Source: an uncultured Petrimonas sp.
GTDB taxonomy: Bacteria > Bacteroidota > Bacteroidia > Bacteroidales > Dysgonomonadaceae
Reading direction: 5' to 3'
Length of the DNA: 10,821 nt
NCBI GenBank assembly: GCA_934621705.1
Contig: CAKTUP010000067.1
Coordinates: 1 to 10,821 of the forward strand
The notes beneath the pieces were generated by a model. The model was given only the letters and a program-made list of their open reading frames with translations, did no database searches and had not been told where the DNA came from. This document shows positions 1 to 10,540 of the stretch, one piece after another. Position 1 is the stretch's first letter. Every line of letters begins with the position of its first letter. The translations under genes were made by a program, and so were the position numbers.

Positions 1-878
1 GCGGGAACAGCCTCTTCGCGTTTGCCTTGCAGGCCGCACTCGAAACTGACGTATTTGTCGTATCCAAGCAATTTCAGGCCTTTAAAACCGTTCACGTAAT
101 TATCGGCTTCGCCGTCTTCGCCCGGCATACTGCGGCGTTTGCGGCTGGCCATGTGCACGTGTTGCAAGTATTTTCCGGCCGATAGGAACGCTGCCATGTC
201 GCAGGTTTCTTCCCACGTCATGTGCCAAAAATCGCCCAGGCAGGTTACACCAGGGTTGTCGATATCGCGGCAAATGGAAGCCGCATCGCCAACCTGACGG
301 AGATAAAACGCTTCGCGGCGGTTAAGCGGTTCCAGAATAACGGTTGTGCCGTATTTCTGTGCCGTATTTCCCATTTCGTTAAACTGCTCGCACAAAAAGT
401 CGCGCGTTTCCTGCGTGTGCGGCATTACGGGAACCTGCGAATTGAACGCCGGAACAATAATCACTCCCGTGGAGCCGAGTTCACCGCCCAGAATAATGAG
501 TTCCTCCATCGTATCGCGGCATTTTTTGCGGATTGCGGGATCGGTAGAAAGAATAAATCCTTCAAAACCGGCGCAAATAGCGCTAACCTTTATGTTTCGC
601 CCTTTCAACGCATCTTTGAACTCCTGCATTCTGGCTTTCATTCCTCTTCCGTGAGGCTCGAAACCAACAACGCCGTGTTTTTCCATAAAATCGAACTTCT
701 CGTTCAGGTTGGCGCCGGGAGCGGTTCCTTCCTGAAACGATATTTTGAGTTCGGCTTTAATGGGATAAACGGGTGCGCCTTTCGATTCGCAACCTGCAGC
801 CGAGAGCGAGTTCCCTACCCCGATAACGGCGGCTCCGGCCAGCGATGTTTTTAAGAATTTTCTTCTGTCTATAGTCAT
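1..878 (-). CDS. Tat-exported TIM-barrel sugar isomerase/epimerase (partial, C-terminus off left edge)
   Basis: The frame is open from an ATG at 878 to the left edge: 292 codons plus two bases. Residues 1-30 form a Tat signal with twin arginines (RRKFLK, 5-10), an Ala/Gly-rich hydrophobic stretch and AAGC at 27-30, which is only a weak lipobox. The rest matches the AP-endonuclease-2/xylose-isomerase-like TIM barrel (sugar phosphate isomerase/epimerase group). Candidate metal ligands are E183 (ILEPLNR), D216 (LGDFWHM), H242 (HVHMA) and E280 (SFECG). Their spacing (33, 26, 38) is close to that of the metal ligands of D-tagatose/D-psicose 3-epimerases (33, 26, 35). The likely role is a metal-dependent epimerase, isomerase or keto-sugar lyase acting outside the cytoplasm; the substrate is unknown. 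It is probably the last or a late gene of the operon starting upstream at 4022, separated from the exported oxidoreductase by a repeat-filled gap. Fold and export are well supported; the reaction is inference. Confidence 0.88.
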   Translation of the reverse strand, partial: MTIDRRKFLKTSLAGAAVIGVGNSLSAAGCESKGAPVYPIKAELKISFQEGTAPGANLNEKFDFMEKHGVVGFEPHGRGMKARMQEFKDALKGRNIKVSAICAGFEGFILSTDPAIRKKCRDTMEELIILGGELGSTGVIIVPAFNSQVPVMPHTQETRDFLCEQFNEMGNTAQKYGTTVILEPLNRREAFYLRQVGDAASICRDIDNPGVTCLGDFWHMTWEETCDMAAFLSAGKYLQHVHMASRKRRSMPGEDGEADNYVNGFKGLKLLGYDKYVSFECGLQGKREEAVP

Positions 879-1026: not shown

Positions 1027-2403
1027 TTATTTCTGCGCACTGCCGGGTACCTGAACGGTGAATCCCGACATATCCATTTTACCGATATTCAAATCTTTGG
1101 GCGTATAATCGAGTTGAGCAGCGATCATCGTATCCCAACTGGTTTCCTGTCCCGTGTAAGCCGCTTCGCGTCCCATAATGGCTGCCATGTTCGACACTCC
1201 GGTTTCGGAAGCTTGTTCGATGGGTTTGTTTCCGCGGATGCAGTTGATCAGGTTCACGTGTTCCAGCGTGTACGGGTCGGTTTGTTTGAAATTGGCTTTT
1301 TCGGCTTCGCCGTCGTATTGCCAAACTACGTTTCCGGCCAAATCCTTGATCACGTGGCCGCCTTGGCTTGTCCACGAACCTTTTGTTCCCTGGATAAACT
1401 CGCTTACGTTGTTGGCGCATCCGTCAATCTGACGACACATACTGTGCAGGTGGATTCCGTTTTCCATCGTGAAATCTACGCTGAAGTTGTCGTACTGGTC
1501 GCCGGTTACACGACGCTGGCGCGAACCGAAAGCAACCGCTTTCACCGGTCTTAAGCCTGAGAACCAAGTAAACACGTCGATATTGTGAACGTGTTGTTCA
1601 ACAATGTGGTCGCCCGATAACCATTTCCAGTTTACCCAGTCGCGAACCATAAATTCGAAATCGTTCCACGCCGGTTGACGGTCGCGATACCACAACATGC
1701 TTTGGTTCCAATAAACCACACCACCGGTAATTTCGCCGATAAGTCCGTTCATTATCTGTTTGTACGACTCAACATACGAGCGTTGGTGATGACGCTGCGT
1801 TCCGGTAACAACGCTTAAGTTTTTTGCCTGAGCTTGTTTGGCGGTGGCAATCAGCGTGCGATAGCCTACTGCATCAACACAAACCGGTTTTTCCAGGAAG
1901 CAGTGCTTGCCTTGTTCCACAGCATATTTGAAATGCTCGGGACGGAAAAACGGAGGCGTACAATCGATCAACACATCAATTCCGCTGTCGATAACCTGTT
2001 TGTATGCATCTAAGCCCACAAAACGCTTATCGGCCGGAATATCGATGTTCTTATCTGCTTTCAATTTATCGGCAAGGCCGTTAACCCTGTCTTCAAATAC
2101 GTCGCCCAACGCAACAATGGTTACACCGTTTGCAGCATTGAGGAAATTCATGGCCGCGCCCGAACCTCTTCCTCCGCAACCTACTACTCCGGCTTTCAGT
2201 TCCTTTCCGTCGGTTGCCAGGTCCACTAACTCAGGCACATAATACGTTCCGGGTTCTTTCAACGGAACAATGGCGCCTTTCTTTTCTCCGCCGCTGCACG
2301 ATGTCAAAAATCCGGTCGTGCCGGTACCGATAACTCCTACCGCTCCTGCAACTGCAGAGCTTTTCAGGAATGACCTTCTTGATAAGTTATTCTCTTTTTT
2401 CAT
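1027..2403 (-). CDS. Tat-exported Gfo/Idh/MocA-family oxidoreductase, predicted lipoprotein
   Basis: This 458-residue protein starts with a textbook Tat motif (SRRSFLK, 8-14), a hydrophobic stretch and a good lipobox LTSC with Cys36, so it should be folded with cofactor, exported and lipid-anchored. The residues after Cys36 (SGGEKK) are not the acidic-rich signal linked to surface display, which suggests a periplasmic-facing position. The NAD(P)-binding Rossmann motif is VGCGGRG (74-80); the family's catalytic Lys is in EKP (171-173); a His/Asp cluster EQHVHNIDVFTW (269-280) sits where the family's catalytic acid/base region is expected. Such enzymes oxidise or reduce sugar hydroxyls or keto groups. 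Zymomonas glucose-fructose oxidoreductase is a precedent for Tat export with tightly bound NADP. The gene starts 26 bp after the cytochrome-SUMF1 gene, so co-transcription is very likely. It does not resemble GH109 closely by eye. Substrate unknown. Confidence 0.92.
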   Translation of the reverse strand: MKKENNLSRRSFLKSSAVAGAVGVIGTGTTGFLTSCSGGEKKGAIVPLKEPGTYYVPELVDLATDGKELKAGVVGCGGRGSGAAMNFLNAANGVTIVALGDVFEDRVNGLADKLKADKNIDIPADKRFVGLDAYKQVIDSGIDVLIDCTPPFFRPEHFKYAVEQGKHCFLEKPVCVDAVGYRTLIATAKQAQAKNLSVVTGTQRHHQRSYVESYKQIMNGLIGEITGGVVYWNQSMLWYRDRQPAWNDFEFMVRDWVNWKWLSGDHIVEQHVHNIDVFTWFSGLRPVKAVAFGSRQRRVTGDQYDNFSVDFTMENGIHLHSMCRQIDGCANNVSEFIQGTKGSWTSQGGHVIKDLAGNVVWQYDGEAEKANFKQTDPYTLEHVNLINCIRGNKPIEQASETGVSNMAAIMGREAAYTGQETSWDTMIAAQLDYTPKDLNIGKMDMSGFTVQVPGSAQK

Positions 2404-2429: not shown

Positions 2430-4022
2430 TTATTTTGTATTTATTGAACTGTCAGGTTCGCACACAACGCGGAATCCGATGCCTTTTATGTCGGAATACC
2501 ACCAGATACTTTTGGGTTGTTGCGGGTCGGTTTTTAACCAGTCGTCATGCCGGGTGTGGCTACGTGCGGCAGAACGAACATCGGCAGCATCCGACAGATA
2601 GCTTCCGCCTCTTACCACCCACTCTTCTCCTTGTGTTACCAACGGATTATTCGTATTTCCGCTTCTTTTTCCGTAAGCGGCTTCGTCGTATTTGTCGGCC
2701 GTGTATTCCATCACGTTTCCGAGCATATTCTTTAATCCAAACGGATTGGACAATACCAGCGATGGTTCCTGTGTGCGGTTATCGCTGTTTTTGCTGTAGA
2801 TAACAAATGCGCTGATGCTGTCTGTTTTCGCGGGGAAGAATCGTCGCATAAATCCTTCGTCGGAGAAATCTTTGGGGCTTCCCGTAAAGAAGTATGGCGT
2901 TTGTGTTCCTCCGCGTGCAGCGTATTCCCATTCGGCTTCGGTGGGCAGACGGTATTTCTTGCCTGTTTTCTGCGACAGCCACTGGCAGAATGTTTCTGCG
3001 GCATAGTGCGTCATCGTGATGGCCGGCCTGTCGCCCGAACCCCAACCTTGATCGGGAAATCCGAACGGCGCCGTGGGGCCTGAAATGGCATCCACTCCCA
3101 TTGCCCTGAGGTTATTTTCGTAAACTACTTCGGGAGAAGTTCTTCCTTCAGTCAGAGTATTTGCAATAAATGCCCAGTATTGATCCCAAGTGGTTTCCAC
3201 TTCGGCCATAAAGAACGGGCTTACCGTTACTTCGTGCTGCGGCGCTTCGTCGGGTTTGTGGAACGGTTCTTTGGGCGAGCTTCCCATCGTGAAAGTGCCG
3301 CCGGGTATAGCCTTCATATTAAACGAAATGGGCGTTCCCGGAATCTGTTCCGTATAGTTTTCAAAAGCAGTAATCACGGCCGGTTCTTTGAAGAACGAGC
3401 TTGAATCAACAGCCGCACCGGCTTTAAAACCGGGTATGCCAACCATTTGTCCGTGCGAATAGTTGGGATTGTAGTGGCCGGCATCGAGGTGGCAGCTGAT
3501 GCATTGGAGGTTTAACTTTTCGTGATTCTCGTCGTAATACATGTGCGCCGTGATGCCGTCGTCGGTAATTCCCTGAGGGAATAAATTCTGATGGCATTTA
3601 ACGCAAGACTCGTTGGGAATATATTTAACGGCATGTTCGAGTTCCGATTTTTTGTCCCAATCGAAATCGGCGCTGTCCTTGGTAATAAAACCCCATACGT
3701 CGCGGATACCCAAAGCGGCTTTAGCCGTATAGTGCGCCCACGTATCGTCTTTTGGCGGAAGATGGCAATCAACGCAGTTGACCATAACGCCACTCCCGTT
3801 GTTTACGTGAACAGACAATTTCCAGCTTTCTTCGGCGTGAGGATGAACGTGACACATCATACACGACTCGTTGGTGGAAAAATACACAGATGTTTGATAT
3901 AATGCTCCGATTAAAATTATGCCTATGGCAATACCTAACAACAAAATAAAACCTTTGCGCTGATGAAATTTTTTACGGTTTTTTTTGTGCTGAGTATCAT
4001 AGATGTTTTTAGATTTAGCCAT
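2430..4022 (-). CDS. Membrane tetraheme NrfH/NapC-like cytochrome c fused to a SUMF1-like domain
   Basis: The 530-residue protein has a basic N-terminus and one membrane helix (about 24-48), then four c-type heme motifs CXXCH: CMMCH 54-58, CVDCH 83-87, CVKCH 140-144 and CISCH 174-178. Single anchor plus four hemes in under 200 residues is the NapC/NirT/NrfH layout, a family that exchanges electrons between menaquinol and periplasmic partners. The first motif is followed by V-H where NrfH has a Met (CXXCHxM). Residues about 235-522 are a SUMF1/FGE-sulfatase fold: IPGGTFTMGS (239-248), LPTEAEWEYAARGG (359-372), GNVMEY (435-440), VVRGGSY (469-475), GFRVV (516-520). The two cysteines of true formylglycine-generating enzymes, just after RGGSY, are absent (LSDAADVRSAARS). 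It is the first gene after a 133-bp AT-rich gap and is followed at 26 bp by the exported oxidoreductase. Architecture is clear; partner and function are unknown. Confidence 0.93.
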   Translation of the reverse strand: MAKSKNIYDTQHKKNRKKFHQRKGFILLLGIAIGIILIGALYQTSVYFSTNESCMMCHVHPHAEESWKLSVHVNNGSGVMVNCVDCHLPPKDDTWAHYTAKAALGIRDVWGFITKDSADFDWDKKSELEHAVKYIPNESCVKCHQNLFPQGITDDGITAHMYYDENHEKLNLQCISCHLDAGHYNPNYSHGQMVGIPGFKAGAAVDSSSFFKEPAVITAFENYTEQIPGTPISFNMKAIPGGTFTMGSSPKEPFHKPDEAPQHEVTVSPFFMAEVETTWDQYWAFIANTLTEGRTSPEVVYENNLRAMGVDAISGPTAPFGFPDQGWGSGDRPAITMTHYAAETFCQWLSQKTGKKYRLPTEAEWEYAARGGTQTPYFFTGSPKDFSDEGFMRRFFPAKTDSISAFVIYSKNSDNRTQEPSLVLSNPFGLKNMLGNVMEYTADKYDEAAYGKRSGNTNNPLVTQGEEWVVRGGSYLSDAADVRSAARSHTRHDDWLKTDPQQPKSIWWYSDIKGIGFRVVCEPDSSINTK

Positions 4023-4154: not shown

Positions 4155-5321
4155 TTAATCAATCCATTTTTGCCATTTGTTATCGTGAGCGCTGCCCGAA
4201 GCCACCATAGTTTCCACGAATTGCATTCCACGAACTCCGTCGTAAACGGTGGGGAAATCCAACATTTTTTCATCCGGGGCTTCGCCTTTTCTTTTAGCCA
4301 TAACGGTAAGTGCGAAGTTTCGGTAAATGTTGGCAAATGCCTCTATAAATCCTTCGGGATGGCCGGCGGGCGTTCTCGTGTTCCACCGGGCCAAATCGCT
4401 CATATATTCGTTGCTGCCCATATAAAGCTCTTCCGTCGGCCTATCTTCCCATCTCAAAATCAATCGGTTCGGATCCATCTGGCGCCACTCCATACCTCCT
4501 TTTTCGCCGTAAACCCTGACACGGATATTGTTGGCTTCTCCGGTGGCAATTTGAGTGGCCATCAATACGCCCGCCACACCGTTTTCGAAACGCAGAAGCG
4601 CGGCTCCGTCATCATCTACGGGGCGTCCTTCGACGAATGTTCGTAGATCGGCACAGATTTCCTCCACCTTAAGTCCTGTAATGTATTCGGCCAAGTGCCA
4701 GGCATGGGTTCCCACATCACCCATGGTTCCGGCTTTTCCGGTGCGGGCGGGATCGGTGCGCCATCCGGCGTTGTTTCCGCCCAGGATCTCTATTCTTTTC
4801 GACAGCCATCCTTGCGTGTATTCCACGTAAACCCTTCTAAGCTTTCCGATTTTACCTTCGGCAATTCTTGCTTTGGCTTCTTTCACAGCCGGATAACCGG
4901 AATAAACGTGCGTGAGAGCCAGTGTAAGCCCGGTTTCTTCTACTTTCTTTTGAAGTATTTTGGCTTCTTCCAGCGAGAAAGTTATGGGTTTGTCGATAAC
5001 CACATGGAAACCTTTTTCCAGCGCCATCATGGCGGGTTCGAAATGCCATTTGTTTGGAGTAACAATAGTTACAAAATCCATTCGTTCATCTTCCGGCAGT
5101 TGCATTTCTTTTTCGAACATTTCGTGATAATCAACGTAGATTCGGTTTTCCGGAAGAAAATAGGACTTCCCGGATGCTTTTGATTCTTCGGGATTGGAGC
5201 TGAAACAGCCGCATACCAGCTCTATAAGGTTATCCATAAAGGCCGCACTACGGTGAATTGGACCAATAAATGAGTCATTGCCACCGCCGATCATGCCCAT
5301 TTTGAGTTTTTTTTGTTGCAT
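4155..5321 (-). CDS. Cytoplasmic Gfo/Idh/MocA-family oxidoreductase
   Basis: From the ATG at 5321 the protein has 388 residues and no signal sequence. The N-terminal Rossmann nucleotide-binding motif is MIGGGNDSFIG (10-20) followed by HR, typical of one dehydrogenase subgroup; DKP (110-112) is the variant of the EKP motif carrying the catalytic Lys; GDVGTHAWHLAEY (201-213) is the C-terminal-domain active-site His region. The likely job is NAD(P)-dependent oxidation or reduction of a sugar, inositol or keto-sugar derivative in the cytoplasm. An upstream in-frame ATG at 5372 would add 17 residues encoded by very AT-rich DNA (MSLLILINQIIYQQINP). That stretch looks like untranslated leader, and the family normally begins a few residues before the glycine-rich motif, so 5321 is preferred. 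The downstream gene is the cytochrome-SUMF1 fusion on the same strand, 132 bp away. A cytoplasmic stage of the same pathway as the exported oxidoreductase is plausible but unproven. Confidence 0.9.
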   Translation of the reverse strand: MQQKKLKMGMIGGGNDSFIGPIHRSAAFMDNLIELVCGCFSSNPEESKASGKSYFLPENRIYVDYHEMFEKEMQLPEDERMDFVTIVTPNKWHFEPAMMALEKGFHVVIDKPITFSLEEAKILQKKVEETGLTLALTHVYSGYPAVKEAKARIAEGKIGKLRRVYVEYTQGWLSKRIEILGGNNAGWRTDPARTGKAGTMGDVGTHAWHLAEYITGLKVEEICADLRTFVEGRPVDDDGAALLRFENGVAGVLMATQIATGEANNIRVRVYGEKGGMEWRQMDPNRLILRWEDRPTEELYMGSNEYMSDLARWNTRTPAGHPEGFIEAFANIYRNFALTVMAKRKGEAPDEKMLDFPTVYDGVRGMQFVETMVASGSAHDNKWQKWID

Positions 5322-5415
5322 AGGGTTGATTTGTTGATAAATAATTTGATTAATTAAAATTAGAAGACTCAATGATAAATTATTATTAAGAAGTAATAAG
5401 AGATTGTTAGAATCA

Positions 5416-7205: not shown

Positions 7206-7898
7206 CTACAACGAAAACCTATTCCCGTTTTCGAGAAATTCAGTATATTTTTTTTGATTAAAAAAATAATAGAATGCACCGCGTTTGGAGGAAGATTTAT
7301 CTTTTACCTCCAGTTTATCGAGGATTCCCATTGTCGCAATTTTTTTGCGGAAATTCCGCTTGTCCACCGGCATTTGGTAAATGGCTTCCCAAAGATCCTG
7401 CAACGCAGGGAGGGTGAATTTTTCGTCGAAAAACTCAAATATTATAGGCTGTAGGGAAACTTTGTATCTTAACAACCTCAAAGCATCTTCCACCATAAGA
7501 TTGTGATCGAAAATCAGTTTGGGAAGCTCTCGAATATTTACCCACTTGGCATCGAATGCTTTGGCCAGGCTGGTATCAAATTCTTCTAAGCGCACCAAGG
7601 CATAATAGGCAATGGACACTACTCGGTCGCCGGTATCGCGGCCGATTTCGCCGTATGCTCCAACCTGCTCCATATAAATACCTTGCTGCCGTGTGTATCT
7701 GTACAGAACCTTTTCAGCGGCTTTGTCAACGCTTTCGTTTTCGTCCATAAACCCGCCCATAAGCGACCATTCGCCTTTGTTGGGTTCAAGCGGACGGCGA
7801 GTTAATAAAATATTGAGTTCCTTGTCTTTGAATCCGAAAATAATGCAATCAACGGCGACAAGAAATTTTGTATCGTGAGAATAAAATCCGGTGGGCAT
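7206..7898 (-). CDS. Nudix-fold winged-helix transcriptional regulator (NrtR/AraR type), probable gal-cluster regulator
   Basis: This 230-residue protein has an N-terminal Nudix domain (about 10-145) and a C-terminal winged helix (about 155-220, around FTLPALQDLWEAIYQ and DKRNFRKKI), the layout of NrtR-family repressors. The Nudix box begins normally (G49 F M D E N E55) but where the consensus REUXEE should follow it reads KVLYRY, so the metal-binding glutamates are lost and hydrolase activity is unlikely. Bacteroidota use catalytically inactive Nudix proteins such as AraR as sugar-responsive regulators. It is the last gene of the galM-gluP-galK run on the same strand, 95 bp after galK, across two palindromes. 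Control of this galactose cluster is therefore the natural inference; an arabinose or xylose role is the main alternative. It ends in TAG at 7206. Confidence 0.85.
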   Translation of the reverse strand: MPTGFYSHDTKFLVAVDCIIFGFKDKELNILLTRRPLEPNKGEWSLMGGFMDENESVDKAAEKVLYRYTRQQGIYMEQVGAYGEIGRDTGDRVVSIAYYALVRLEEFDTSLAKAFDAKWVNIRELPKLIFDHNLMVEDALRLLRYKVSLQPIIFEFFDEKFTLPALQDLWEAIYQMPVDKRNFRKKIATMGILDKLEVKDKSSSKRGAFYYFFNQKKYTEFLENGNRFSL

Positions 7899-7917
7899 GA
7901 TAATTAGTTTTGGGTAG

Positions 7918-7937
7918 AGACGCGATTAATCGCGTCT
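7918..7937. repeat. 20-bp perfect palindrome AGACGCGATTAATCGCGTCT
   Basis: The two 10-bp halves are exact reverse complements with no spacer, between galK and the Nudix regulator. Its GC-rich outer arms contrast with the AT-rich surroundings. The sequence resembles short dispersed palindromic repeats found between genes in Bacteroidota and cyanobacteria (from memory, not searched). It starts 20 bp upstream of the regulator's start codon, so it could also be an operator or a leader hairpin. Confidence 0.75.
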
Positions 7938-7949
7938 GTGCAAAATTTA

Positions 7950-7975
7950 CAGGGACGGAAAAAATTCCGTCCCTG
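7950..7975. repeat. Second palindrome: 11-bp stem, 4-base loop
   Basis: CAGGGACGGAA (7950-7960) pairs perfectly with TTCCGTCCCTG (7965-7975) around an AAAA loop. It sits 12 bp past the first palindrome and 18 bp beyond the galK stop. Both share a GACG...CGTC framework. On the minus strand the hairpin follows galK, but no U-run directly follows the stem, so it is a poor intrinsic terminator; it could stabilise the upstream mRNA or attenuate read-through into the regulator gene. Confidence 0.72.
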
Positions 7976-7993
7976 CTTAAATAGGTCAGAATA

Positions 7994-9145
7994 TCAGAGC
8001 TTGCGCGCGCCGTCGCTTATTACAACGTCGTACACCTTAGGCTCATGTCCGTATTTTTCCTTGAACTGCTTTTTGGCATCTTCGATAAACGAATCATAGA
8101 ATTCGTCTTTTACCAGATTGATGGTACATCCGCCAAAACCGCCGCCCATAACGCGCGAGCCTGTAACGCCATGTTCGCGGGCAACATCGTTCAGAAAATC
8201 GAGTTCCTCGCAGCTTACTTCGTACAGTTTGCTCATACCGTGATGCGTTTTGTACATCCGGTCGCCAACAGTTTCGTAATCACCTTTTTCCAACGCTTCC
8301 GAAACATCGTAAACGCGTTGTGTTTCCTCGATCACGTATTTAGCGCGCATATAATCCTCTTCCGTGATTTTGTCTTTAACGGCATCGAGTTGTTCCATGG
8401 TAGCATCACGAAGAAACTGCACATCCGGATTTCCGTTGTCGTGAATGGCTTTGGCAGCACGTTCGCACGATTCGCGGCGTTTGTTATACGCCGATGAAGC
8501 CAGTTCGTGTTTCACCACCGTGTCGAGCAATACCAGTTTGTATCCTTTCGGATTAAAAGGAAAATAATCGAACTCCATCGATTTGGTATCCAGACGCATC
8601 AGGTGGCCTTCTTTTCCGAATAACGATGCAAACTGATCCATAATGCCACATTTCACGCCCACGTAATTGTGTTCCGTGGACTGTCCGATGCGAGCCAGTT
8701 CGAATTTATCGATTCCGAGATTCAGCATATCGTTCAACGCAAAAGCGTACGTGCTTTCCAACGCTGCCGATGACGACATTCCCGCTCCCAGCGGCACATC
8801 GCCGGCAAAAGCGGTATCGAAGCCAACCACTTTTCCGCCACGTTTGATGATTTCGCGGCAAACACCGAAAATATATTTTGCCCAGCCTTCTTTCGGCAGG
8901 TCTTCTTCGTTAAATCCAAACTCCGAATGTTCATTCAAATCGGCAGCGTAAGCACACACCTTATCGGTTCCATTCAAACGGATGGCGGCAATCATTCCTT
9001 TGTCGATTGCTCCGGGAAAAACAAAACTCCCGTTATAATCGGTATGTTCGCCAATGAGGTTTACACGCCCGGGGGACGTGTAAACTTCAGGTGTATCGTT
9101 ACCAAATTTTTCGTGATAAATTTTTAAAACTTGTTCTTTAGTCAT
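7994..9145 (-). CDS. galK: Galactokinase
   Basis: This 383-residue GHMP-family kinase phosphorylates D-galactose at C1 with ATP, the entry step of the Leloir pathway in the cytoplasm. The galactokinase signature GRVNLIGEHTDY is at 26-37 (catalytic Arg27 and sugar-contacting EHTDY), the ATP-binding GHMP motif LGAGMSSSAALE at 119-130, the catalytic Asp in GIMDQF (D170), and GHMP motif 3 RVMGGGFGGC at 331-340. Length and motif order are normal for bacterial GalK. It starts 12 bp after the gluP stop, so the two are co-transcribed, and it is followed by the palindrome pair and the Nudix regulator. An exact 9-bp inverted repeat lies inside codons 21-29 (see separate entry). Confidence 0.97.
   Translation of the reverse strand: MTKEQVLKIYHEKFGNDTPEVYTSPGRVNLIGEHTDYNGSFVFPGAIDKGMIAAIRLNGTDKVCAYAADLNEHSEFGFNEEDLPKEGWAKYIFGVCREIIKRGGKVVGFDTAFAGDVPLGAGMSSSAALESTYAFALNDMLNLGIDKFELARIGQSTEHNYVGVKCGIMDQFASLFGKEGHLMRLDTKSMEFDYFPFNPKGYKLVLLDTVVKHELASSAYNKRRESCERAAKAIHDNGNPDVQFLRDATMEQLDAVKDKITEEDYMRAKYVIEETQRVYDVSEALEKGDYETVGDRMYKTHHGMSKLYEVSCEELDFLNDVAREHGVTGSRVMGGGFGGCTINLVKDEFYDSFIEDAKKQFKEKYGHEPKVYDVVISDGARKL
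9059..9085. repeat. Intragenic inverted repeat near the 5' end of galK
   Basis: GTTTACACG (9059-9067) and CGTGTAAAC (9077-9085) are exact reverse complements around a 9-base GC-rich loop. It covers codons 21-29 of galK, about 60 bp inside the gene. It may be an mRNA hairpin or an intragenic operator, or a by-product of the conserved protein sequence VYTSPGRVN. Confidence 0.45.
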
Positions 9146-9157
9146 TTTTCTGTAAAA

Positions 9158-10540
9158 TTATTTCATTTGTTCTTCCAAAGGTAAACTTTGAGGAGTGGTT
9201 TCAATAGGAATATCCTCAGTGTCAACAGTGGAAATATTCTTATTAACATTTTTCGATCCAATTAAAGCATAATATAACAGATAAGCTAAGCCAACAAATA
9301 CTACCCAGTAGCTCACCAAATAATTCAACCCACCGGTCATATCAACGATTCCGTTTTGAAGCAATGGCAAAATACCACCACCGCAAACAAGCACCATAAA
9401 AATTCCAGACGCTTTTTCGGTATATTTTCCAAGTCCTTCTACAGCAAGATTAAAAATTCCGCCCCACATCACAGAGGTACAAAGCCCCACCAAAACAAGG
9501 AATGCGGCGTTAATCGGCACTTTGGCCAAACCAAATAAACCTTCTGCATCGTTTTTGAAAACCGGCAAGTTAACCATCGATTCGGTTGGCGAGAACATAG
9601 CGGCAAGTGTCAATACCAAGCCAGCTAAAGAAGCTACTGTCAACATTGATTTTGCCGAAACTTTACTACCGATTGCGGCACCAAGGAGACGACCAACGAG
9701 CATCAACAACCAATAAGTGGCTGTTACAGATCCTGCAATAGCTTCTGCAGAGCCAATTCCGCCTAATTGAAGCACATCCAAATCGGGATTTTGCAACCAT
9801 TTATTCAATACATTAGGTACTCCTACCTCTACTCCCACATACACAAAAATACCTACTGCTCCCAGCACGAAATGGCGGAACGACAATGGCGAGTGCTCAT
9901 ATTTTGGAGTTACGGTTGAACGTACGGTGTTTTTCTCGGGAATAGAAGTAAGCGAAATTACTAAAAACGCAAATGCGAAGATGGCCAATGCAGTATACAT
10001 TAACGGGAATACGTCGCTAATCTGAGCGTTTTTAATACCGTTCGGAATTAAAATACCGGTAAGAATAATAACTGCAGTACCTGCCAAGGAGTTAAAAGAA
10101 CCACCGACTTGAATCAGCTGGTTTCCTTTATTTCCACCGCCGCCAAGTCTGTTCAACATCGGGTTTACAACCACATTGAGCAAACACATGGAGAATCCGG
10201 CAACAAACGCGCCCAATAAATAGATACCAAAACTGCCGGCAAAACCGGAAATAGTTTGGATACCTACTCCCACGAATCCCACCGCGATGGCAATGAGAGC
10301 CGTTTTTTTATAACCAAGCTTTTGAAGCAAATTACCGGCCGGATATCCCATAACGGCATAAGCGATAAAATTGGCAAAAACACCCAGCGTACCCATCCAG
10401 TTGGGCACATTAAACTGGAATTTCAAGATATCTCCCATGGGAGAAGCTAAATTGGTAACAAATGCGATCATCCCGAAAAGGAAGATCATCATAATTATCG
10501 GTAAAAGATAATTTTGTTTCTGATCTGTTTTAGTATTCAT
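9158..10540 (-). CDS. gluP: Glucose/galactose:H+ symporter, FucP/GluP-type MFS permease
   Basis: This 460-residue inner-membrane protein has about 12 hydrophobic segments. Family motifs include the N-terminal FVTNLASPMGDIL (27-39), NVVVNPMLNRLG (122-133), QVGGSFNSLAGT (144-155), and near the C-terminus GIFNLAVEGLGKYTEKASGI (361-380) with GGGILPLLQNG (387-397). These match the FHS (fucose-galactose-glucose symporter) branch of the MFS. It should import galactose and/or glucose, feeding galK directly downstream (12 bp) with galM upstream (44 bp). A hydrophilic tail of about 30 residues after the last helix, rich in Asp, Glu and Thr, makes it a little longer than many relatives. Fucose as a substrate is possible, but the context favours galactose. 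Confidence 0.93.
   Translation of the reverse strand: MNTKTDQKQNYLLPIIMMIFLFGMIAFVTNLASPMGDILKFQFNVPNWMGTLGVFANFIAYAVMGYPAGNLLQKLGYKKTALIAIAVGFVGVGIQTISGFAGSFGIYLLGAFVAGFSMCLLNVVVNPMLNRLGGGGNKGNQLIQVGGSFNSLAGTAVIILTGILIPNGIKNAQISDVFPLMYTALAIFAFAFLVISLTSIPEKNTVRSTVTPKYEHSPLSFRHFVLGAVGIFVYVGVEVGVPNVLNKWLQNPDLDVLQLGGIGSAEAIAGSVTATYWLLMLVGRLLGAAIGSKVSAKSMLTVASLAGLVLTLAAMFSPTESMVNLPVFKNDAEGLFGLAKVPINAAFLVLVGLCTSVMWGGIFNLAVEGLGKYTEKASGIFMVLVCGGGILPLLQNGIVDMTGGLNYLVSYWVVFVGLAYLLYYALIGSKNVNKNISTVDTEDIPIETTPQSLPLEEQMK

Follow-up and report, generated by a model that had tools for sequence, protein, structure and literature searches.

A NapC/NrfH–SUMF1 fusion protein of Bacteroidales as a candidate membrane electron-transfer partner of an exported sugar oxidoreductase

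The fusion gene and its surroundings

The window considered in this study, i.e. the whole stretch of 10,821 nucleotides (contig CAKTUP010000067.1 of an uncultured Petrimonas sp.), carries on its reverse strand a gene whose product joins a tetraheme cytochrome of the NapC/NrfH type to a SUMF1 domain (Table 1). Downstream lie genes for an oxidoreductase of the Gfo/Idh/MocA type (hereafter Gfo) and a TIM-barrel protein, while another Gfo is encoded upstream. Elsewhere in the window (positions 7206-10540), a Nudix/NrtR-AraR-like regulator, a galactokinase and a GluP-type MFS transporter stand in a row and, judging by their sequences, form a probable galactose or arabinose module.

Table 1. Features of the fusion gene and its neighbours (positions in the window)
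Feature	Positions	Strand	Basis
TIM-barrel (AP_endonuc_2) sugar isomerase/epimerase, truncated at the window edge	3..878	(-)	Pfam, structure match
Tat-type Gfo/Idh/MocA oxidoreductase, 458 aa, probable partner	1027..2403	(-)	Pfam, NCBIfam, tblastn, model
NapC/NrfH-SUMF1 fusion protein	2430..4022	(-)	530 aa, uninterrupted ORF
SUMF1/FGE domain, residues 238-492	2547..3311	(-)	Pfam FGE-sulfatase, alignment, Foldseek
Loop D311-T317 (DAISGPT)	3072..3092	(-)	departs from the ApbE motif DxxSGA[ST] at a single position (A to P)
NapC/NirT tetraheme domain, residues 22-187	3462..3959	(-)	Pfam Cytochrom_NNT, CXXCH motifs
K101-D108, aligned with the NrfH quinol-site Lys/Asp stretch	3699..3722	(-)	alignment with NrfH (2j7a)
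His60, at the place of the NrfH CXXCHxM methionine, heme 1	3843..3845	(-)	alignment with NrfH
Membrane helix, residues 23-48	3879..3956	(-)	AlphaFold model, hydropathy
Gfo/Idh/MocA oxidoreductase without signal match, upstream, optional (18/70 loci)	4155..5372	(-)	Pfam, tblastn

A first-pass annotation had described the fusion as a single frame with one membrane helix, four CXXCH motifs and a SUMF1/FGE fold, a description borne out by the open reading frame, Pfam, hydropathy and AlphaFold/Foldseek. The Cytochrom_NNT match scores 90 bits against a cut-off of 24 (1.9e-25), the FGE-sulfatase match (2e-39) covers positions 7-237 of the 255 in the profile, and the CXXCH motifs lie at residues 54, 83, 140 and 174. 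Hydropathy exceeds 1.6 solely around the N-terminal helix (the peak window starts at residue 24); residues 1-24 carry a charge of +8, and the N-terminus is probably inside. In the AlphaFold model, block means of confidence in the SUMF1 half are above 75, except for residues 291-330 (38-51) and 491-510 (60-63), and those of the cytochrome half past the helix are mostly below 70.

Distribution of the fusion

In the homologue search 7756 of 7999 scored candidates passed the E-value threshold of 1e-3, and both Pfam domains were present in 120/120 among the homologues listed. Relatives are encoded by 254 of 269 pattern-matched stretches from GTDB genomes, 80 of which were kept, with Petrimonas, Proteiniphilum, Fermentimonas, Dysgonomonas, Parabacteroides, Tannerella, Alistipes, Prevotella and Prolixibacteraceae among their names. 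The kept loci are 62-92% identical to the query fusion, and are therefore related rather than independent cases. In a class-wide sample of 395 genomes, the full fusion was present in four genomes (five copies), while 19 had a stand-alone SUMF1 relative with 39-44% identity. In a quick SUMF1 tree of 68 sequences (17 of the 79 fusions and 51 stand-alone proteins), the fusions form one side of a branch with support of 100. They apparently constitute a large Bacteroidales family of single origin, with which the tree is consistent, without being proof of it. The open-access literature that we searched yielded no account or defined function of a NapC/NrfH-SUMF1 fusion, in line with the first-pass annotation, which knew of no characterised role for this combination.

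The two halves of the fusion protein

The four CXXCH motifs are present in all 79 fusions. The motif of heme 1 is invariably CXXCHxH (79/79), at the place where NrfH (2j7a) in the alignment has CXXCHxM, the pattern typical of NrfH/NapC, whose methionine is a heme ligand in NrfH. The same alignment revealed that the stretch K101...G105..D108 is retained from NrfH, in which the aligned Lys and Asp belong to the quinol site; K...G..D was found in 74/79 fusions (it is missing in loci L005, L055, L061, L063 and L070). Against the NrfH equivalog TIGR03153 the fusion reaches 69 bits (cut-off 134), and its neighbour is a Gfo, not NrfA. Moreover, in two of the five genomes searched (G003 and G004), an NrfH with CHIM adjoins NrfA, apart from the fusion, which is thus a second NapC-family protein there. 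With nrfHA separate in these two of the five genomes, we rejected the reading of the fusion as a nitrite reductase subunit.

As regards the other half, Foldseek matched the fusion model to PvdO (5hha; 1.3e-17) and human FGE (3.5e-16). The catalytic cysteines of FGE are C336 and C341 (according to the titles of 2aft and 2afy among the Foldseek matches), and an alignment with human FGE detected no cysteines in that region of the fusion. The NCBIfam SUMF1-type models shown gave scores far under their cut-offs (PvdO, 86 vs 500 bits; GldK, 99 vs 350 bits). By the features tested, the SUMF1 half is therefore a fold relative of FGE and not an FGE. The first-pass annotation had noted neither a sulfatase nor a nitrite reductase gene in the window, which agrees with a Pfam scan of its eight main ORFs. 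Sulfatase activation of the FGE type was rejected, since the Cys pair is absent and no sulfatase occurs among these ORFs, as was a GldK of the T9SS by its score.

It is conceivable that the SUMF1 half has kept an oxidising activity of the FGE or PvdO type and uses the hemes to dispose of electrons anaerobically. In favour of this, PvdO, named dihydropyoverdine dehydrogenase by NCBIfam, ranks first in both sequence and fold comparisons; the loss of both catalytic cysteines, the low PvdO score and the lack of a sulfatase among the main ORFs of the window all argue against it, and we consider it highly improbable.

The SUMF1 half contains a loop of the form D-[AG]-[IV]-S-G-P-[ST] in 78 of the 79 fusions, L070 being the exception. 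The surrounding region (residues 291-326), which holds the invariant D311 and P316, has very low model confidence, which would be in keeping with a loop that binds a ligand or partner.

Neighbours of the fusion gene

Gene neighbourhoods were compared by tblastn in 81 loci (the window included). A Gfo of the window kind lies directly downstream of the fusion, on the same strand, in 72/73 testable loci (those with at least 1.4 kb downstream), and is followed by the TIM-barrel protein in 67/68. Locus L070 encodes a fusion without either of these neighbours, which also lacks the SGP[ST] loop motif and K...G..D. A cytochrome c synthase (identified by Pfam) is found downstream in 35/58 loci, five of which (four from Alistipes and one other) are weak matches beside a separate ResB gene, and a further Gfo, whose inspected example has no export signal, is encoded downstream in 22/58. 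When neighbouring ORFs were clustered, Gfo (65 loci) and TIM (58 loci) were followed by clusters of 31, 21, 20 and 14 loci, most clusters being unannotated; this census relied on ORF picking, which chose long antisense ORFs in some loci and gave no focal ORF in L072 and L075. In L038, L041, L047 and other Parabacteroides-type loci, the TIM barrel is followed not by CcsBA but by a protein of 231-238 aa (no Pfam match in the one member scanned) and one that, by eye, is LuxR-like. The gene context of the fusion points to one partner, i.e. the Gfo.

The exported Gfo and the TIM-barrel protein

The window Gfo has a Tat signal (Pfam, NCBIfam), and its RR, Rossmann glycines, EKP and H-x-H-N-x-D are conserved in at least 95% of 110 sequences. 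The Rossmann glycines and the EKP lysine are functional features of Gfo/Idh/MocA enzymes. GFOR leaves the cytosol via Tat with its cofactor bound before export, and by analogy the Tat signal of the window Gfo suggests that its cofactor would be loaded in the same way. Inositol dehydrogenases ranked first among the structural matches of the Gfo model (pLDDT 88.9), and the 50 matches listed include RgNanOx, YjhC, aldose-aldose oxidoreductase, GFOR, an NAD-dependent glycoside hydrolase (8qc5) and DgpA1.

The TIM-barrel protein matches 3kws ("putative sugar isomerase"; 4.2e-135) and 6wn6 ("3-keto-D-glucoside 4-epimerase"; 5.9e-21). Its Tat signal scores over the cut-off of TIGR01409 (20.4 vs 16.7 bits) and under that of PF10518 (20 vs 22.7 bits), and RRxFL occurs near the start of 52/59 relatives. 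One of four loci with a Gfo paralogue (46-47% identical), L149, encodes a 3-keto-disaccharide hydrolase, a GH109-type protein and a TIM barrel; L151 also has a TIM barrel, and L150 and L152 have, by eye, no such set. In Bacteroides thetaiotaomicron, BT2158 is described as a periplasmic glycoside 3-dehydrogenase (PMC11300592) and BT2157 as a 3-ketotrehalose hydrolase (PMC9007349), and the elimination of 3-keto-glycosides has also been described (PMC10628242). By analogy, a 3-keto pathway is plausible for the Gfo and the TIM barrel. The window Gfo matches the BT_2158 family model weakly (2.7e-6), reaching 26 of the 750 bits that this model (NF058561, glycoside 3-dehydrogenase) requires, and oxidation at C3 is therefore a guess.

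The SUMF1-Gfo pair beyond the fusion

The survey of stand-alone SUMF1 relatives comprised 20 loci of the class sample (19 stand-alone and the fusion L143) and 40 of a phylum sample, in which a match was found in 54/395 genomes (G574, at a contig end, and G676, with an internal stop, were left out). A focal ORF was available in 56 of these 60 loci (L161, L166, L183 and L192 were left out), including L173 and L189-L191, where SUMF1 is part of ORFs longer than 1000 aa. SUMF1 is followed, at a distance of one or two ORFs, by a Gfo of the same kind in 43/56 loci (42/55 without the fusion L143), 13/56 have no adjacent Gfo, and a TIM barrel is present within six ORFs in 26/56. The SUMF1-Gfo pair is therefore wider than the fusion. 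The first-pass annotation had stated that its idea would be refuted if the two halves occurred in close relatives as separate genes with no shared context. For the SUMF1 half, we did find separate genes, but these keep the Gfo as their partner, and the idea is thereby strengthened. The view that the protein transfers electrons and uses its SUMF1 domain to dock a partner gains support at the level of gene context (72/73 fusion and 42/55 stand-alone loci), docking itself being a proposal, and the hub and the docked sugar suggested in the first-pass annotation are conjectural.

Some loci have unusual structures. In L189, L190 and L191, the SUMF1 domain belongs to ORFs of 1171-1184 aa with a protein-kinase-like start (by eye), followed by another SUMF1-like ORF. 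In L125 and L163, a stand-alone SUMF1 without Gfo has large proteins in its vicinity that contain one or two CXXCH motifs.

The reverse search detected 42 Gfo matches in 28/395 genomes, five beside the fusion, 16 beside a stand-alone SUMF1 and 21 beside no SUMF1 known from these surveys. Gfo can thus exist without SUMF1, and it is unlikely that all members of the Gfo family form an obligate complex. Among the six copies with 72-92% identity, five adjoin the fusion. The sixth (L148, 7968-9380, in the Petrimonas genome) is a second Gfo, 92% identical to that of the window; it has no fusion beside it, and upstream of it are encoded a Nuc_H_symport transporter and a Gfo of cytosolic type.

These SUMF1-free copies would also suit an alternative in which Gfo, as is the case for GH109 and GFOR, catalyses a redox-neutral reaction and requires no electron outlet, SUMF1 binds a glycan, and the cytochrome serves another, unlinked enzyme. 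The presence of GFOR, aldose-aldose oxidoreductase and 8qc5 among the structural matches listed fits this alternative, as does that of the SUMF1-fold variable protein 2y3c, a ligand-binding protein, among the Foldseek matches of the fusion. We nevertheless regard it as unlikely, since it is the cytochrome fusion itself that is paired with Gfo almost without exception, and no other neighbour cluster approaches the Gfo/TIM rate.

Proposed role of the fusion

We propose, with moderate confidence, that the fusion serves as the membrane-anchored subunit for electron transfer in a complex that oxidises sugars in the periplasm, and in which electrons pass from Gfo via the hemes to menaquinone. As the fusion gene nearly always directly precedes the Gfo gene, its product probably carries Gfo electrons to the membrane. 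According to this scheme, in which we infer the contact between fusion and Gfo, the direction of electron flow, the substrate, the cofactor state and the hydride-to-single-electron step, the Tat-type Gfo, with an expected non-exchangeable NAD(P), would act on a sugar or glycoside and oxidise one of its ring hydroxyls, possibly that at C3. No longer an FGE-type catalyst, the SUMF1 domain would serve as a docking platform for Gfo, whose electrons would travel through the four hemes of the fusion to menaquinone in the inner membrane, and the TIM-barrel enzyme would then epimerise or cleave the keto product. We favour the route from sugar through NAD(P) and hemes to menaquinone because of the gene pairing, the export signals, the heme maturation genes and the quinone-site stretch.

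Free NAD(P) is not expected in the compartment in which exported Gfo/Idh/MocA enzymes meet their sugars, which raises the question of how they dispose of electrons. The tetraheme protein so regularly paired with Gfo is a concrete candidate for such an outlet, and a SUMF1-fold protein without the FGE cysteines thereby gets a concrete candidate partner. If the proposal is true, Bacteroidales of the gut and of digesters would feed their respiration with electrons from extracytosolic sugar oxidation.

The same complex might also run in reverse, from menaquinol through the hemes to the exported Gfo, which would reduce a keto-sugar or have a stuck cofactor regenerated. NapC-type proteins, including most characterised members of the NapC/NrfH group, mostly oxidise quinol, and the K...G..D stretch is retained in most fusions. 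Likewise, ImoA, a NapC/NirT protein proposed to reduce quinone, was shown to oxidise quinol (PMC9600427). Reverse flow is, for all that, distinctly unlikely: the TIM-barrel match and the context of one paralogue (L149) suit sugar oxidation, and menaquinol (about -75 mV) is poorly suited to reduce NAD(P) (about -320 mV). The proposed direction towards menaquinone rests on these potentials.

A possible flavin step

NAD(P)H reduces heme slowly unless a flavin or a similar carrier takes part, and any such carrier is putative here. A tentative and, on balance, rather unlikely extension of our proposal is that the SUMF1 domain is itself a covalent FMN carrier, with FMN attached by ApbE (an FMN transferase) to the last Ser/Thr of the conserved loop [DE]-x-x-[STA]-x-[PA]-[ST], which has SGPT in the fusions. 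The NAD(P)H in the exported Gfo would then reduce the FMN on SUMF1, which would accomplish the hydride-to-electron step, and the Bacteroidales fusion would wire this FMN directly into hemes and menaquinone. If true, this would represent, to our knowledge, a new flavoprotein fold and the first NAD-type sugar enzyme with a quinone outlet.

An ApbE homologue was found within four ORFs in 19/56 SUMF1 loci, namely in 17/43 with Gfo and 2/13 without, numbers too few to tell apart. The neighbour counts for stand-alone SUMF1 rest on the ORF picker, and 19/56 is a low count because the picker missed an ApbE 218 bases from SUMF1 in genome G649. Pfam identified ApbE in the three members scanned, and NCBIfam gave it as the best family, under the cut-off, for two. 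Near the fusion, ApbE lies within about 1.2 kb in 6/81 loci (L036, L044, L046, L050, L054 and L058). A set of 31 genomes, selected by hand and in many cases because they carry ApbE, contains about 1.8 ApbE genes per genome, and six of these genomes have their sole detected ApbE within 6 kb of SUMF1; from the number per genome we estimate that chance would place an ApbE within about 5 kb in well under one of the 56 loci. The ApbE label, as flagged, changes 12 times on the SUMF1 tree. In the Petrimonas genome, the only ApbE found (L193, 5340-6392) lies about 10 kb downstream of the fusion on the same strand and adjoins a nitroreductase-like ORF (by eye).

The substrate motif of ApbE is given as D-x-x-[S/T]-G-A-[S/T], in which replacement of Ala by Val cut flavinylation to about half (PMC12052999). 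The strict motif D-x-x-[ST]-G-A-[ST] occurs in 0/79 fusions, and with Pro for Ala in 78/79. No other ApbE target emerged nearby: the form [DE]xx[ST]GA[ST] was found in 3/1762 ORFs overall, and in none of the ORFs of at least 90 aa within five ORFs in 20 ApbE loci; a loose motif was absent from 67 Gfo and 59 TIM proteins. Stand-alone SUMF1 loops have R or other residues at the motif Gly, and position 6 is Pro in the rows of the stand-alone survey, except in L142 (Ala). The loop reads E-x-x-A-x-P-S in L164, L168 and L171, of which L168 and L171 (E-x-x-A-R-P-S) have ApbE nearby. A trend towards a loop-final Thr in six early ApbE loci did not hold in the wider survey, where the ApbE-linked L125, L137, L168, L171, L177, L181, L182, L184, L185, L186 and L188 end in Ser. 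The case for flavinylation of SUMF1 by ApbE is suggestive, with contrary examples. We did not accept SUMF1 as a proven ApbE target, in view of the E-x-x-A-x-P-S loops, the Pro at position 6, the Ser endings and the low-confidence loop.

In the open-access literature, ApbE and SUMF1 were not found together among the matches listed, and the words SUMF1, Gfo and NapC are absent from the main text of PMC8238504 and PMC11334425. A modular exchange of flavin and cytochrome carriers has been described (PMC8238504).

Relation to known systems

The fusion combines features of several known systems. With NrfH and the NapC/NirT quinol dehydrogenases it has in common one helix, four c-type heme motifs, the K...G..D stretch and a gene that precedes that of the catalytic subunit, often with a cytochrome c synthase. 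Unlike them, it has CXXCHxH at heme 1, an extra SUMF1 domain and a sugar-type oxidoreductase as neighbour. Its SUMF1 half has the same fold as FGE/SUMF1, PvdO and GldK (Foldseek), but differs from FGE in lacking the Cys pair and from PvdO and GldK in NCBIfam scores far under the cut-offs. LacABC and DET-type dehydrogenases possess cytochrome subunits.

As in the ApbE-flavinylated extracytosolic carriers described in PMC8238504 and PMC12052999, ApbE recurs as a neighbour, here of the stand-alone SUMF1-Gfo pair; those carriers have Ala in the motif, whereas the fusion loop has Pro. The LacABC glucoside 3-dehydrogenase, reported to be membrane bound (PMC9007349), and the DET-type FAD glucose dehydrogenase (PMC6719666) couple extracytosolic sugar oxidation to the membrane, as proposed here. 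Their catalytic subunit is a GMC flavoprotein, whereas in the system described in this study it would be an NAD(P)-type Gfo/Idh/MocA enzyme with a proposed SUMF1 docking domain. We provisionally file the fusion with the quinone-linked periplasmic sugar dehydrogenases, as a variant of this class.
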